Made by a program: the position numbers and the translations under genes. From Silvanigrellaceae bacterium (GTDB lineage: Bacteria; Bdellovibrionota; Oligoflexia; Silvanigrellales; Silvanigrellaceae), in NCBI GenBank assembly GCA_947475135.1, contig CANJMU010000024.1, positions 1 to 7,884 on the forward strand: 7,884 bases of DNA. The letters run 5' to 3'. The notes beneath the pieces are model-generated. The model saw nothing but the letters and a program-made list of their open reading frames with translations, was not told the origin of the DNA and did not search any database. The first letter of the stretch is position 1, and each line of letters starts with the position of its first letter. This document shows positions 1,366-6,886 of this stretch, piece after piece.

Positions 1366-1394
1366 TTGATTCTAGGACGTAAGTGGAATAACTT
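1366..1394 (+). promoter_or_regulatory. Possible promoter for the phosphatase/PagL-like pair
   Basis: TTGATT (1366-1371), 17 nt, TAACTT (1389-1394). Both boxes are imperfect. It overlaps the opposing promoter head-on around CTTCGAAG (1392-1399), so the two directions could compete. Weak prediction. Confidence 0.25.
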
Positions 1395-1397
1395 CGA

Positions 1398-1425
1398 AGA
1401 ATGCAAAAAAAATTGCAACTGTCAA
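1398..1425 (-). promoter_or_regulatory. Sigma70-like promoter for the unknown gene and lgt
   Basis: The minus strand has a perfect TTGACA (-35, 1425-1420), 16 nt, then CATTCT (-10, 1403-1398). The spacer holds the inverted repeat TGCAA-N6-TTGCA (1402-1417) and the -10 abuts the palindrome CTTCGAAG (1392-1399), either of which could be a protein-binding site. Transcription would begin near 1391, about 45 nt before the TTG start. Predicted by eye from consensus similarity. Confidence 0.4.
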
Positions 1426-1478
1426 ACAACTCCAGTGTTCGACGGAAATAAGTTGAATCCTAGTCAGAGGATCCTTGA

Positions 1479-2249
1479 ATGTCAAAGATTAAAAAGTCTC
1501 ATTTGTTTATTTTTTTAGTGATTATTTTTGTTCTTTCTGGAGTTTTTTCCTTTTTTGAGTATTTGTATCATCACGATGCAAACCGTTATGAATCCAAGCA
1601 GTGGCTTGGGTTTTTTGACCATAGGCTTAACTTCAGAGATGTTGGTCAAAGTTACAATGAATGTTTAGGGCAGCGTATTTTTCAAGAAAATAAAATATTT
1701 CGATCCAATAAATATTTTTCGGGTTGGAGTTGTGAAAAAATAAAATCTCCAAATAAAATTTATACCTTTAATTATGATCCACATAATCCTCATGTTTATT
1801 ATTGTTTTGAAAATAATAATTCAAAAAAAATTGGAATTCGTTTTAATGAGCATTCCCTTATCAAGGATACAGATTTTGTATCTAATTGGAAAAATCTAGA
1901 GGTGAAGTCTGCTCTATGTCGTTACTTTGAATCCAATTTAAATGATCTCATTCAAAATCAAAAATTTTTATATCACTGCGATCAGGGGCGCGATCGAACA
2001 GGATTTTATTCGGTGATGTTGATGCTTTCCTTGGCAGAGCAAAAAATGAAAGTAACTTCAGAAATTCAAAAAGCAGCTTTATGCGATTATTCAAAAAGTA
2101 CGAGATTGCCTAAAAACGCAGAAGCAAAAATGACTCAGTTTATTGAAGAAACGGAACAAAAAGGTGGATTTTCAAAATTTTTAATGGAAAATTGTCACCT
2201 TGATCCAAAGCTATTTTCTTTGGCGGCGGAAAGTTTTGTGGTGAAATGA
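1479..2249 (+). CDS. Membrane-anchored tyrosine-phosphatase-family protein
   Basis: A 256-residue protein of the cysteine-dependent phosphatase superfamily, closest to the bacterial NFRD/HCxxGKDRTG type (Y_phosphatase3, which includes the lipid- and protein-acting MptpB). Residues 8-25 form one hydrophobic segment, a signal anchor that should place the catalytic domain in the periplasm. The domain shows LNFRDVG (50-56), IFRSNKYF (73-80) and the P-loop HCDQGRDRTG (166-175), with nucleophile Cys167 and phosphate-binding Arg173 in correct CX5R spacing; the usual Lys of GKDR is Arg. The start ATG has AGAGGA 7 nt upstream. Its stop overlaps the start of the next gene by 4 nt (ATGA), so the two are translationally coupled. 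The substrate is unknown. Phosphotyrosine, phosphoinositide or another phosphorylated envelope lipid are all possible in this family, and its coupling to a lipid A enzyme relative makes a lipid substrate worth considering. Confidence 0.85.
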   Translation: MSKIKKSHLFIFLVIIFVLSGVFSFFEYLYHHDANRYESKQWLGFFDHRLNFRDVGQSYNECLGQRIFQENKIFRSNKYFSGWSCEKIKSPNKIYTFNYDPHNPHVYYCFENNNSKKIGIRFNEHSLIKDTDFVSNWKNLEVKSALCRYFESNLNDLIQNQKFLYHCDQGRDRTGFYSVMLMLSLAEQKMKVTSEIQKAALCDYSKSTRLPKNAEAKMTQFIEETEQKGGFSKFLMENCHLDPKLFSLAAESFVVK

Positions 2250-2848
2250 ATTTTTTCAAAATTTTAACTCTATTGTTTTTTTTATTTCAAAATTTTTTTT
2301 CAAGAATTGCTTTCTGTCAAGAAGTTCAAGTTGTTTTTCCAAAAAACTATTTTTCAGTGGGATACTTTGAACAAAAAACTTTAAATGGAGATATTTCTCG
2401 TCCTCCAAGGCCGATGATGTGGACGGCAGCACAGAAATCAAATTTTGGTGGAGTTTTTATGTATGAAAGGCTTATTTTTCATACTCAAAAAATTTATTCA
2501 CTCACTCTAGGTTTCGACTATGGAAACTGGTTTGCTAAATTTGACAGTATCCAAAGCTTTTCTTTGTTTTTTAAAAATCGATTCTGGATTTATCATAATA
2601 AATTTTTAACACCTTATATTGTTCATAGTATCGCTGGTCTAACATTGCTTTCGCAGAGTCATTTTTCAACTAAAGACCTTGGTTCCAGGTTTCTGTTTCA
2701 AGATTTTTTAGGCATTGGTGCAGCTCTTGGGAATGAAAAAAATTTATTTGTAGAAATTTCTTTTTGGCACTATTCAAACGGAAATATTTTTCCAGTAAAC
2801 CCTGGGTTTGACGTGCCAATAGTGCTTTCTGTTGGTCTTGGTTTTTAA
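2246..2848 (+). CDS. PagL-like lipid A 3-O-deacylase (outer membrane)
   Basis: PagL is an eight-stranded outer-membrane barrel that removes the 3-position acyl chain of lipid A. This 200-residue protein has a hydrophobic signal peptide (about 1-24, cleavage probably near AFC-QEV) and alternating aromatic beta strands. It ends in GLGF, with the terminal Phe typical of barrel proteins. The active-site segment near the C-terminus reads HYSNGNIFPVNPGFD (175-189). His175, Ser177 and Asn178 match the PagL HxSN motif, and NxG follows at the same spacing as in P. aeruginosa (HYSNAGLKQPNDGIE). The third catalytic position, Glu in that enzyme, is Asp189 here. Asp could still orient the histidine, but activity is not assured. 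The gene overlaps the phosphatase stop and is followed 53 bp later by the PagP-like gene. Two runs of eight T (2276-2283, 2293-2300) lie in the signal-peptide coding region. Confidence 0.75.
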   Translation: MNFFKILTLLFFLFQNFFSRIAFCQEVQVVFPKNYFSVGYFEQKTLNGDISRPPRPMMWTAAQKSNFGGVFMYERLIFHTQKIYSLTLGFDYGNWFAKFDSIQSFSLFFKNRFWIYHNKFLTPYIVHSIAGLTLLSQSHFSTKDLGSRFLFQDFLGIGAALGNEKNLFVEISFWHYSNGNIFPVNPGFDVPIVLSVGLGF

Positions 2849-2859
2849 AATTTTATAAT
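2832..2859 (+). promoter_or_regulatory. Possible promoter before the PagP-like gene
   Basis: A perfect TATAAT (2854-2859) stands 16 nt after TTGGTC (2832-2837), at the end of the PagL-like gene and 42 nt before the next ATG. It would allow separate transcription. In DNA this AT-rich a TATAAT alone is weak evidence. Confidence 0.3.
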
Positions 2860-2901
2860 ATAAAAATGTTGTAAAAAAAAATCCAATTTTTAGAGTTGAA
2901 A

Positions 2902-3012
2902 ATGAACGTTTTAAAAAAAATTATTTTTTGTGCTTTGATTTATTTCTGGATTTGGTCTTTTCAGGCTTCAGCAGAGCCCAGAGCCCAGAGCCCAGAGCCC
3001 AGAGCCCAATGA
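2902..3012 (+). CDS. OFF-state product: signal peptide plus repeat-encoded tail, 36 residues
   Basis: In the sequenced five-copy state, translation from ATG 2902 yields a 24-residue signal peptide followed by EPRAQSPEPRAQ and TGA. The stop overlaps the ATG at 3009 (ATGA). Ribosomes ending here could restart and make the barrel domain without its signal peptide. The short peptide is unlikely to have its own function; it is listed because it is the literal reading of this sequence. Confidence 0.45.
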   Translation: MNVLKKIIFCALIYFWIWSFQASAEPRAQSPEPRAQ

Positions 3013-3488
3013 ATTCTTCTACAAATAATGAAAAAAGTTTTCTTTCAAAACTTTGGGGTGAACCGGGTTGGGATGGGGTTCTTTTAGGAATGTGGAGTTT
3101 TCATTATCAGTTAATCTCTCCTGATGCTGCAACACGCCGTGACGCTCAAAAAGAACAATGGCAAAATCAAGCAATTGCAATTACGTATCATGGTATATTT
3201 GGTGGTACTTTTATCAATTCATTCAACGATCGTTGTTATTCTTTTGGTTTTCAAAGGGATGTACTTCAATGGGGGGATATTTCATCATTTTCAACAAATT
3301 TGGGTTATCGTTTAGGCTTTGTTTATGGTTACGATAGTCGAATGAGTGTAGGGCGTATTGCTGATAATTCAAAACTTCTTCCTTATCTTCAGATTATTTA
3401 CGATGTTGGTTGGAAATGGTTTGGTTTTGAATCAAGTTTTGTTGGCGTTCTGACAGGCGGCTTTTTCATTCGTGCTTACTTAGACTAA
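2902..3488 (+). CDS. PagP-like outer-membrane protein, phase-variable, out of frame as sequenced
   Basis: The gene begins at ATG 2902 (AGAG 6 nt upstream) with a clear signal peptide, MNVLKK, a hydrophobic core and an ASA cleavage site at residue 24. It then enters five GAGCCCA repeats and stops at TGA 3010-3012. The rest of the protein continues in another frame from ATG 3009 to 3488 (159 residues, close to the 161 of mature E. coli PagP). The barrel part aligns by eye with PagP, the enzyme that adds palmitate to lipid A. WSFH (H32 counted from ATG 3009) stands for WHAR (His33 of PagP), and FINSFNDR (68-75) for FKDSWNKW, keeping Ser71 but with Asn70 where PagP has catalytic Asp76. Later, RLGFVYGYDSR and LLPYL resemble LGLGFTAGVTAR and the strand after it. 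Three or six repeats would restore one frame. PagP identity is a remote-homology inference; an outer-membrane barrel is safer. A TTG at 2928 opens the barrel frame further but gives no sensible signal peptide. Confidence 0.6.
2974..3008 (+). repeat. Five tandem copies of the heptamer GAGCCCA
   Basis: Five perfect units (2974-2980, 2981-2987, 2988-2994, 2995-3001, 3002-3008), preceded by CA as a partial unit. The array starts on the first codon after the predicted signal-peptidase site. Three units encode the heptapeptide EPRAQSP, so multiples of three keep the frame, while each single gain or loss shifts it by one. The array is GC-rich in AT-rich surroundings, which makes chance unlikely and slippage plausible. 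Confidence 0.95.
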
Positions 3489-3544
3489 GCATAAAAAATG
3501 CATTATCAAGATTCGAATTTCCAAGATCTAAGTTCTCAATCTAA
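3489..3544. other. Convergent intergenic gap without a clear terminator
   Basis: The plus-strand envelope cluster and the minus-strand ABC operon end tail to tail here, 56 bp apart. The only stem is GCAT-AAAAA-ATGC (3489-3501), four pairs and no following T-run, too weak to call a terminator. An ATTCGAAT palindrome is also present. How either transcript ends is not evident. Confidence 0.5.
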
Positions 3545-4960
3545 CTAAACATCCGCCAAAAATAATTTTTCTTCATTTGTATCATAAACCATCAAATTGG
3601 CATGTCGGCACCAACGTAACAAGGTTTGGAATTGCACATCGTGATCTTCAAAAGGTAACATCATCACAATTTGTTCTTGGACAACTTCAGCTTCTAGTCC
3701 TTTTTCACCGGAATTTTTAACCATTTCATAAATAGATGAAACAATCGGCAATTTTAATATGGATGTTTTCATAATATCGAGACGTTTATCCGCATCATTT
3801 TCTGCTGCAAAAGATCTTCCTGCATCAGTTAAAATGACTTGAATTCCTGGTGTAATTAAAAATCCTAAAATTTCTGCAGCTGCAATTGCTGGCAAAACTT
3901 GATCGACGCTTTGGCCTACATCTTCACACAATTCATACAGATCCATGGGTTCTATTTCTGCGCTCAATCGGCTGATTAAACCCTCAACAAATGTCAGACT
4001 TGTTTTAATCAATGGTTTGATTCTTTTTTGTTTGTGATGGTTTTGTGGATGAGTTGTTGAATTGGGTGTTGGTTGAGTTTCTAATTTATTTTTTGTTTCT
4101 GAAGACTGTTGTGCAGTTGGAATTAAAAAATTGTTTTTGACATGATTGGCATCGAGCATTTCGTGCTCGTCTGTTACCTTATCAAGGTGCAATCTTCCAA
4201 AAGCATTTTCCAACTGATTTTCTAATTCTTTATAAATCTCAGACGAAAGATTCCGTGGGCGCGGTAAAGTCACTTCTAAAGTATAAAAAATTGTTCCGGG
4301 ATTGGAAGAAAGAATAATGACACGATCTGCAAGTTGTAGAGCTTCATCAAAGCGATGTGTCACTAAAACTCCAGCACGAATTTTTTTTTCTGGCAGTGTC
4401 CAAATCCTTAAAATTTCAGCTTTTAAGGATTCACTAGTCAATGGATCTAACGCGGAAAATGGCTCGTCCATAAATAAAATCATGGGGTCAGCGACCATCG
4501 CTCTTGCAAAGCTAACCCTTTGTTTCATTCCGCCACTTAATTCTTTTGGGTAAACATCTTCATATCCACGTAAACCAACGAGTTGAATAAAACGATCGAT
4601 TCTTTCATTCTGTTCCTTTATTGGTAACTTAGGTAAGGAAACAGAAATATTTTCGCGCACAGTCATCCAAGGAAACAATGCAAAATTTTGAAAAACAAAA
4701 GATCCTAATTGTAAATTATCTTTGGAGGGCTCTGCATAAGTGACTTTTCCTCGATCTGGTGTCAGTAGCCCAGCCATGCAACGCAATAAGGTCGACTTTC
4801 CAGAGCCAGAAAGACCTACAATTGCAAGAAATTCTCCATCATAAATATCTAAATTAATTCCTTCTAAAACAGTGAACATATTTCCATTAGGGCGACGAAA
4901 ATCTTTGCTCACGGCGCGTGCACTTAAAATAACCTTTTTTTTTGAAGGCGATATCAGCAT
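3545..4960 (-). CDS. NitT/TauT-type ABC transporter ATPase with C-terminal AAA-associated domain
   Basis: A 471-residue ATP-binding subunit that powers import by the neighbouring permease from the cytoplasmic face. Residues 10-240 are a complete nucleotide-binding domain: Walker A GLSGSGKST (49-57), Q-loop VFQNFALFPW (89-98), signature LSGGMKQR (141-148), Walker B ILFMDEPF (161-168, Glu166) and switch His202. All catalytic residues are present. A hydrophilic low-complexity linker rich in Thr, Gln, Asn, His and Lys (about 284-314) leads to residues 320-465. There MDLYELCEDVGQS, LTDAGRSFA and FQTLLRWCRHANLMVYD fit the AAA-associated C-terminal domain (AAA_assoc_C) found on some nitrate/sulfonate/bicarbonate-family ATPases, probably winged-helix and regulatory or dimerising. 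The ATG lies 2 nt after the permease stop, with AAGGA inside the permease end, so expression is coupled. The substrate cannot be named. Confidence 0.92.
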   Translation of the reverse strand: MLISPSKKKVILSARAVSKDFRRPNGNMFTVLEGINLDIYDGEFLAIVGLSGSGKSTLLRCMAGLLTPDRGKVTYAEPSKDNLQLGSFVFQNFALFPWMTVRENISVSLPKLPIKEQNERIDRFIQLVGLRGYEDVYPKELSGGMKQRVSFARAMVADPMILFMDEPFSALDPLTSESLKAEILRIWTLPEKKIRAGVLVTHRFDEALQLADRVIILSSNPGTIFYTLEVTLPRPRNLSSEIYKELENQLENAFGRLHLDKVTDEHEMLDANHVKNNFLIPTAQQSSETKNKLETQPTPNSTTHPQNHHKQKRIKPLIKTSLTFVEGLISRLSAEIEPMDLYELCEDVGQSVDQVLPAIAAAEILGFLITPGIQVILTDAGRSFAAENDADKRLDIMKTSILKLPIVSSIYEMVKNSGEKGLEAEVVQEQIVMMLPFEDHDVQFQTLLRWCRHANLMVYDTNEEKLFLADV

Positions 4961-6762: not shown

Positions 6763-6886
6763 AGACCTCTTTCCTAACCCCATTTTCTTCGTTGTCGCCG
6801 CGACTTGGTTTCCTAAGTGTATCAGTGCATACACTGCGTTAACTCTCGCTTGCGTCGCTTCGAAACTGAGGTTAGGAAAGAGGTCT
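6763..6886. repeat. 124-bp element with 17-bp terminal inverted repeats (MITE-like or structured RNA)
   Basis: AGACCTCTTTCCTAACC (6763-6779) recurs as an exact inverted copy at 6870-6886. Allowing two mismatches, the match extends inward to 25 bp (6763-6787 against 6862-6886). Inside are a perfect palindrome GTCGCCGCGAC (6794-6804) and a seven-pair hairpin AGTGTAT/ATACACT with a six-nt loop (6816-6835). The interior is rich in CG steps, unlike the surrounding AT-rich DNA. No target-site duplication is apparent and no transposase is encoded. It lies between rpmB and the permease in the direction of transcription, so it could be a MITE-type repeat, and as RNA it would fold into a long closing stem with internal hairpins. 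Confidence 0.7.

Follow-up and report, generated by a model that had tools for sequence, protein, structure and literature searches.

Analysis of the window, by which we mean the whole 7884 bp stretch of Silvanigrellales DNA considered here (35% G+C), revealed a perfect array of five GAGCCCA heptanucleotides that sits exactly between the codons of a signal peptide and those of the mature part of a protein, with a unit length that is not a multiple of three. On balance, we favour the reading that phase variation at the level of translation controls a PagP-like acyltransferase at this contingency locus, and that the sequenced copy was read in its OFF state at five units. The assignment of a surface enzyme as the putative target is based on PagP as the best Foldseek match, on a tentative alignment of the active-site residues and on the neighbouring PagL gene.

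A heptanucleotide array between signal peptide and barrel

The features relevant to this reading are, in order of position:

1479..2249, plus strand: tyrosine-phosphatase-like protein with an HCDQGRDRTG motif and, by eye, an N-terminal hydrophobic stretch (Pfam PF13350)
2246..2848, plus strand: PagL-type lipid A 3-O-deacylase, open throughout (Pfam PF09411)
2902..2973, plus strand: signal-peptide codons MNVLKKIIFCALIYFWIWSFQASA (sequence and translation; signal peptide judged by eye)
2974..3008, plus strand: perfect heptanucleotide array (GAGCCCA)5 (TRF and scripts)
3009..3012, plus strand: ATGA overlap of TGA 3010 (signal-peptide frame) and ATG 3009 (barrel frame) (sequence)
3009..3488, plus strand: probable PagP-like outer-membrane barrel of 159 aa, out of frame with the signal peptide in the five-copy state (homologues, structure model and Foldseek)
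3102..3104, plus strand: codon of the invariant His32, tentatively aligned with the catalytic His of E. coli PagP (alignments)
3216..3221, plus strand: codons of the invariant Asn70-Ser71, tentatively aligned with the catalytic Asp-Ser of E. coli PagP (alignments)

Translation from ATG 2902 gave an apparent signal peptide ending in Q-A-S-A, of which an earlier note on this DNA had named the ASA; its last codon (GCA, 2971–2973) is directly followed by the first of the five perfect repeat units, while ATG 3009 lies directly 3′ of the last one. TRF counted the unit as CAGAGCC and reported 5.3 copies at 2972–3008 with 100% match. The frame of ATG 2902 reads MNVLKKIIFCALIYFWIWSFQASA-EPRAQSPEPRAQ-stop and ends at TGA 3010–3012, the barrel frame continues without interruption from ATG 3009 to the stop codon at 3486–3488, and the third frame is closed by a stop at 3026. 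The two coding frames are offset by 107 nt (2 mod 3), so they are out of register at five units and in register at unit numbers divisible by three; this frame logic is arithmetic on coordinates, and the earlier proposal that three or six units would join the frames was calculated correctly. Since seven equals 1 mod 3 and the repeat contains no stop in any frame, the heptapeptide EPRAQSP, previously proposed for three units, is read in cyclic order in every frame. The locus shows two properties expected of a contingency locus, namely a perfect tandem repeat of non-triplet unit length in the 5′ coding region and, by coordinate arithmetic, a gene start and gene body that are joined or separated by a change in unit number.

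The array is far beyond chance expectation, as the longest perfect periodic run comprised 30 matches at period 7, whereas 300 first-order Markov simulations covering periods 4–12 gave runs of 9 at the median and 14 at most. Its G+C content of 71% differs from the 33% found in the 500 bp on each side, and all five plus-strand GAGCCC words of the window fall within it. No Rfam family reached its gathering score in the window. An A8 tract (2913–2920) was observed inside the signal-peptide codons of the PagP-like gene, and two T8 tracts (2276–2283 and 2293–2300) close to the 5′ end of PagL, the length at which Neisseria eptA is ON; with 15 A or T runs of at least 8 nt in the window, these tracts may reflect mere AT richness.

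A PagP-like barrel protein

The outer-membrane protein that the earlier note had placed behind the array is uninterrupted, and its identity can be sharpened: it most likely represents an outer-membrane lipid A acyltransferase that resembles PagP and belongs to a family outside Pfam, for which palmitoyl transfer to lipid A would be the putative activity. The family comprised 122 proteins at E ≤ 1e-3, query included. The structure model of the barrel (pLDDT 88.5) contains eight strand segments, which together with an N-terminal helix form the small eight-strand barrel typical of PagP. In a Foldseek comparison against the PDB, PagP structures were the sole matches below 1e-3, with 3gp6 and 1thq as best matches, the structures aligning at about 15% identity; two sequence searches for PDB relatives yielded none, each returning one chance-level row.

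At the residue level, H32 and S71 tentatively align with the His and Ser of E. coli PagP, whose catalytic residues we take to be H33, D76 and S77, and the PagP Asp corresponds to Asn70. This active-site alignment reached an E value of 0.006, yet a hhalign probability of only 6%; its score of 24.3 compares with 23.4 for the best shuffle, and 0 of 100 shuffles reached it. The gathering score of PF07017 (PagP) was not reached: the window's protein gave no match to this model, and one of the 30 alignment members matched it at E 0.078. Further Pfam rows obtained for the family at E 0.03–0.1 were discarded as chance, so that PF07017 alone was kept in mind, and no Pfam match above cut-off was found in the scanned family members (30 members in one scan, 8 in another).

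Neighbouring genes

Both genes upstream of the array exceeded their Pfam thresholds, the PagL gene passing the gathering score of PF09411 (E 3.2e-14, 53.7 bits versus a cut-off of 23) and the phosphatase-like gene matching PF13350 (E 1.2e-9, 38.9 bits versus a cut-off of 22.2). They overlap by 4 bp, and the end of the PagL gene is separated from ATG 2902 by 53 bp on the same strand. A weak terminator-like site at 2815–2836 (plus strand) is one of two in the region 1380–3620, for which 1.3 were expected; in view of this site, a phosphatase-PagL-barrel operon is no more than presumed, with the phosphatase-like gene as its presumed first gene. At the level of a guess, the phosphatase-like protein could act as a lipid phosphatase in an operon for envelope remodelling that it shares with PagL. 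Relatives of PagL or the phosphatase were not detected by tblastn (E 1e-3) in the stretches of L001–L033 that were covered; as PagL is divergent, this result tests gene order only weakly. PagL (PF09411) was likewise not found in the single genome examined for it (G001), and the PagL query gave no match in phages.

Downstream, the opposite strand encodes an ABC ATPase, a permease and ribosomal protein L28. Besides itself, the ATPase had its best match at 74%, and the closest named matches came from Fluviispira vulneris (69%) and Silvanigrella aquatica (68%), both from genera of the Silvanigrellales, an order within the Bdellovibrionota, so that a member of this order is the most likely source of the DNA. 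An inverted repeat at 6763–6886 (25-nt arms, 92% complementary, 74 nt apart) is located close to where the ABC permease gene begins and ahead of the L28 gene; it may represent a REP- or MITE-like element, or else form a long hairpin.

Proposed switch

In the proposed switch, slipped-strand mispairing at replication would add or remove seven-base GAGCCCA units. At unit numbers divisible by three, the Sec signal peptide would be fused to the PagP-like enzyme, and the in-frame lengths would add just a short Pro-rich linker at the mature N-terminus. Such in-frame units should be tolerated, since the N-terminal lengths of the family vary widely: of 120 proteins, 115 carry the family's motif, with a start between residues 14 and 182 (median 68), though some of them may be truncated, and the closest relatives (P0002–P0004, 49–51% identity) have hydrophobic, by eye signal-peptide-like N-termini followed by long linkers. 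At all other unit numbers, translation would end at the codons now located at 3010 or 3026, no enzyme would be present in the outer membrane, and the sequenced copy with its five units would be OFF. As the upstream PagL gene is open throughout, switching would alter lipid A acylation in a subpopulation; since five units are few, switching, if any, may be slow. We infer slippage and its reversibility as well as the enzymatic activity and a selective benefit, which may lie in protection against antimicrobial peptides, phages or predators.

Relatives of the barrel and alternative readings

Unit numbers in homologous loci had been named beforehand as a test of the switch. A contig search for barrel relatives yielded 21 loci, with no record titled Silvanigrellales or Bdellovibrionota among them; 18 were inspected upstream, and 16 had a visible gene 5′ end. 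Using a criterion of at least three exact copies of a 4–12 bp unit within the open frame up to the match, no 5′ coding array was found in these 16 loci, all of them distant relatives. TRF reported imperfect, low-scoring period-8 rows in AT-rich open frames of L007 (score 35, 2.4 copies) and L012 (score 39, 2.9 copies), besides an upstream row in L017, while L006 carries three copies of AAACT about 50 bp before its ATG. At the protein level, none of the 120 listed family proteins contained a tandem heptapeptide (119 relatives, as the window's own entry P0001 starts after the array), and one of the 120 (P0229) contained an exact tandem repeat of 4–10 residues, near its N-terminus. As far as seen, the array thus appears particular to this lineage and located at the family's length-variable place; with no comparable array in the relatives, it would be a lineage-specific gain. 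The earlier description of a contingency locus caught OFF stands in its geometry, its mod-3 logic and its precedents, while the lack of an array in homologous loci speaks against it, so that the switch is something we continue to infer.

In the phylum of G001 the family was found in G001 alone among 299 genomes, and in the phylum of G003 there were two matches in 297 genomes, one of them G003 itself. Viral contigs contained neither a barrel relative nor an exact match to the array junction, and plasmids gave no match. The titles of L001–L018 include Desulfobulbaceae, Desulfobacterales, Gastranaerophilales, Nitrospirae, Thiotrichales and Competibacteraceae. In L002, a MAG titled Desulfocapsa sp., two adjoining heptamer arrays of different units, ACCCAAT x4 and AAACCGC x3, were observed at 9284–9337.

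The absence of comparable arrays in the relatives examined would also fit a recent and fixed loss of function, in which a single expansion or contraction of the array broke the frame and left a young pseudogene with no working switch. The sole sampled state is indeed OFF, and a pagP frameshift between Bordetella holmesii isolates is reported (PMC5454989). However, the 159 barrel codons carry no other lesion, the window's barrel retains all 12 positions at which 30 aligned sequences do not vary, and a perfect, frameshifting 35-bp array placed exactly at a linker that tolerates length changes goes beyond a random frameshift. We therefore consider a fixed loss unlikely, albeit the most serious of the alternatives.

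The unit number itself could have been miscounted during sequencing or assembly, in which case most cells would carry another number, the gene would normally be ON, and the array may still be slippery. K-mer assemblers can collapse short arrays, the species is sampled through a single protein entry (P0001, one member sequence, two contigs), and the longest contig with the window's protein measures 7888 bp. In contrast, an array of 35 bp fits well inside one read, and the 159-aa protein occurs in two contigs, though perhaps one contig was counted twice. A miscount appears improbable to us.

The array could also belong to a family of heptamer repeats dispersed over the genome, its position within this gene being accidental. 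GAGCCCA arrays do occur in unrelated DNA, namely in two viral contigs and, as (GAGCCCA)3, in 2 of 398 genomes of the phylum of G001, and the arrays of L023 and L028 are interspersed with variant units. However, the backward control pattern was found in 1 of 398 genomes, so that the GAGCCCA heptamer is not clearly special, and TRF detected no second heptamer array in the 7.9-kb window; we regard this reading as quite improbable, and the notion of a special mobile GAGCCCA element was discarded on the same counts. In one of the viral contigs (L022, 1–98, minus strand), 14 GAGCCCA copies reach the end of the stretch and continue a 180-codon open frame as an EPRAQSP repeat tail at its end. In genome G231, the backward control pattern gave 32 matches, which amount to at least one long array of a different heptamer.

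Finally, some barrel might be produced even at five units, either by ribosomes that terminate at TGA 3010 and use the ATGA overlap to restart at ATG 3009, or by polymerase or ribosome slippage, for which the barrel frame being open from 2859 and the A8 tract at 2913 could be cited, but a restarted barrel would be devoid of a signal peptide, the pre-array stretch in the barrel frame contains acidic residues and is unlike a signal peptide, and P0002–P0004 do have signal-peptide-like N-termini, which makes such two-cistron expression highly improbable. Transcriptional slippage in the A8 tract was rejected as the main route, since the resulting N-terminus is unlike a signal peptide.

Significance

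The interpretation that we regard as plausible and probable is a contingency switch of the heptanucleotide type in Silvanigrellales, acting on a PagP-like lipid A acyltransferase whose gene lies next to PagL. The mechanism of a slippage switch is already known, whereas the target gene and the lineage were not found in the literature searched: neither a repeat-based phase-variable PagP nor palmitoylation of lipid A under slipped-strand phase variation was encountered in the open-licence articles covered. More tentatively, and with some doubt prevailing on our side, the locus may represent the first PagP-type lipid A acyltransferase under slipped-strand control and the first heptanucleotide contingency locus in Silvanigrellales or Bdellovibrionota, in which an operon with PagL constantly on and PagP flickering would generate mixed acylation states in a free-living bacterium. 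Phase variation has been described as typical of small-genome bacterial pathogens (PMC11475388). If true, our reading would widen the phylogenetic range of phase variation to a probably free-living Silvanigrellales bacterium, add a new kind of target, and make lipid A heterogeneity in this group directly testable by unit counts in sequencing reads. Independently of any switch, a PagP-like family of 122 proteins emerges in which none of the members scanned exceeded a Pfam cut-off.

Comparison with known systems

The predicted barrel resembles PagP, the lipid A palmitoyltransferase of PF07017, in its eight strand segments, in its best Foldseek matches and in the tentatively aligned His and Ser, and differs from it in scoring below the Pfam cut-off, in the Asn that replaces Asp before Ser and in an identity of about 15%. 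Among phase-variable surface genes, hgp of Haemophilus influenzae carries its repeat after the leader peptide; unlike the present array, that repeat is a tetranucleotide, and the product is a haemoglobin receptor. The product of Neisseria eptA/lptA is an inner-membrane enzyme. As proposed for our locus, the CCAA repeat of hgp lies within the open reading frame of a surface protein and turns it ON or OFF (PMC11475388, PMC2651432).

The premise of the earlier note, that repeats with non-triplet units switch surface genes, has close precedents in eptA (PMC6111236) and neuO (PMC13001214). As we propose for our candidate, eptA/lptA of Neisseria encodes a lipid A-modifying enzyme switched by slippage in the 5′ coding sequence; eptA is phase-variable through a poly-T tract that switches at about 1e-4 and is ON with 8 Ts (PMC6111236). 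Unlike here, the repeat is a poly-T tract, and the group transferred is phosphoethanolamine rather than an acyl group. Heptamer arrays in Xanthomonas and Nostoc were considered unlikely to mediate phase variation by the authors of the study describing them (PMC4692102); that heptamer arrays also occur with no evident function would count against a switch.

A close parallel is neuO on the CUS-3 prophage of E. coli K1, where the heptanucleotide AAGACTC in the 5′ coding region sets the gene ON if the repeat number is divisible by three (PMC13001214). There, 64 genomes carried 3 to 53 units, with 42 of the 64 not in a multiple of three; against this range, five units are a low number. The array described here differs in being placed between a signal peptide and an outer-membrane barrel and in being known from one sequence, and neuO encodes a capsule O-acetyltransferase with proven variation. 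Common to both, on our reading, would be a seven-base unit in the 5′ coding region, the mod-3 rule and a modification of the cell surface.
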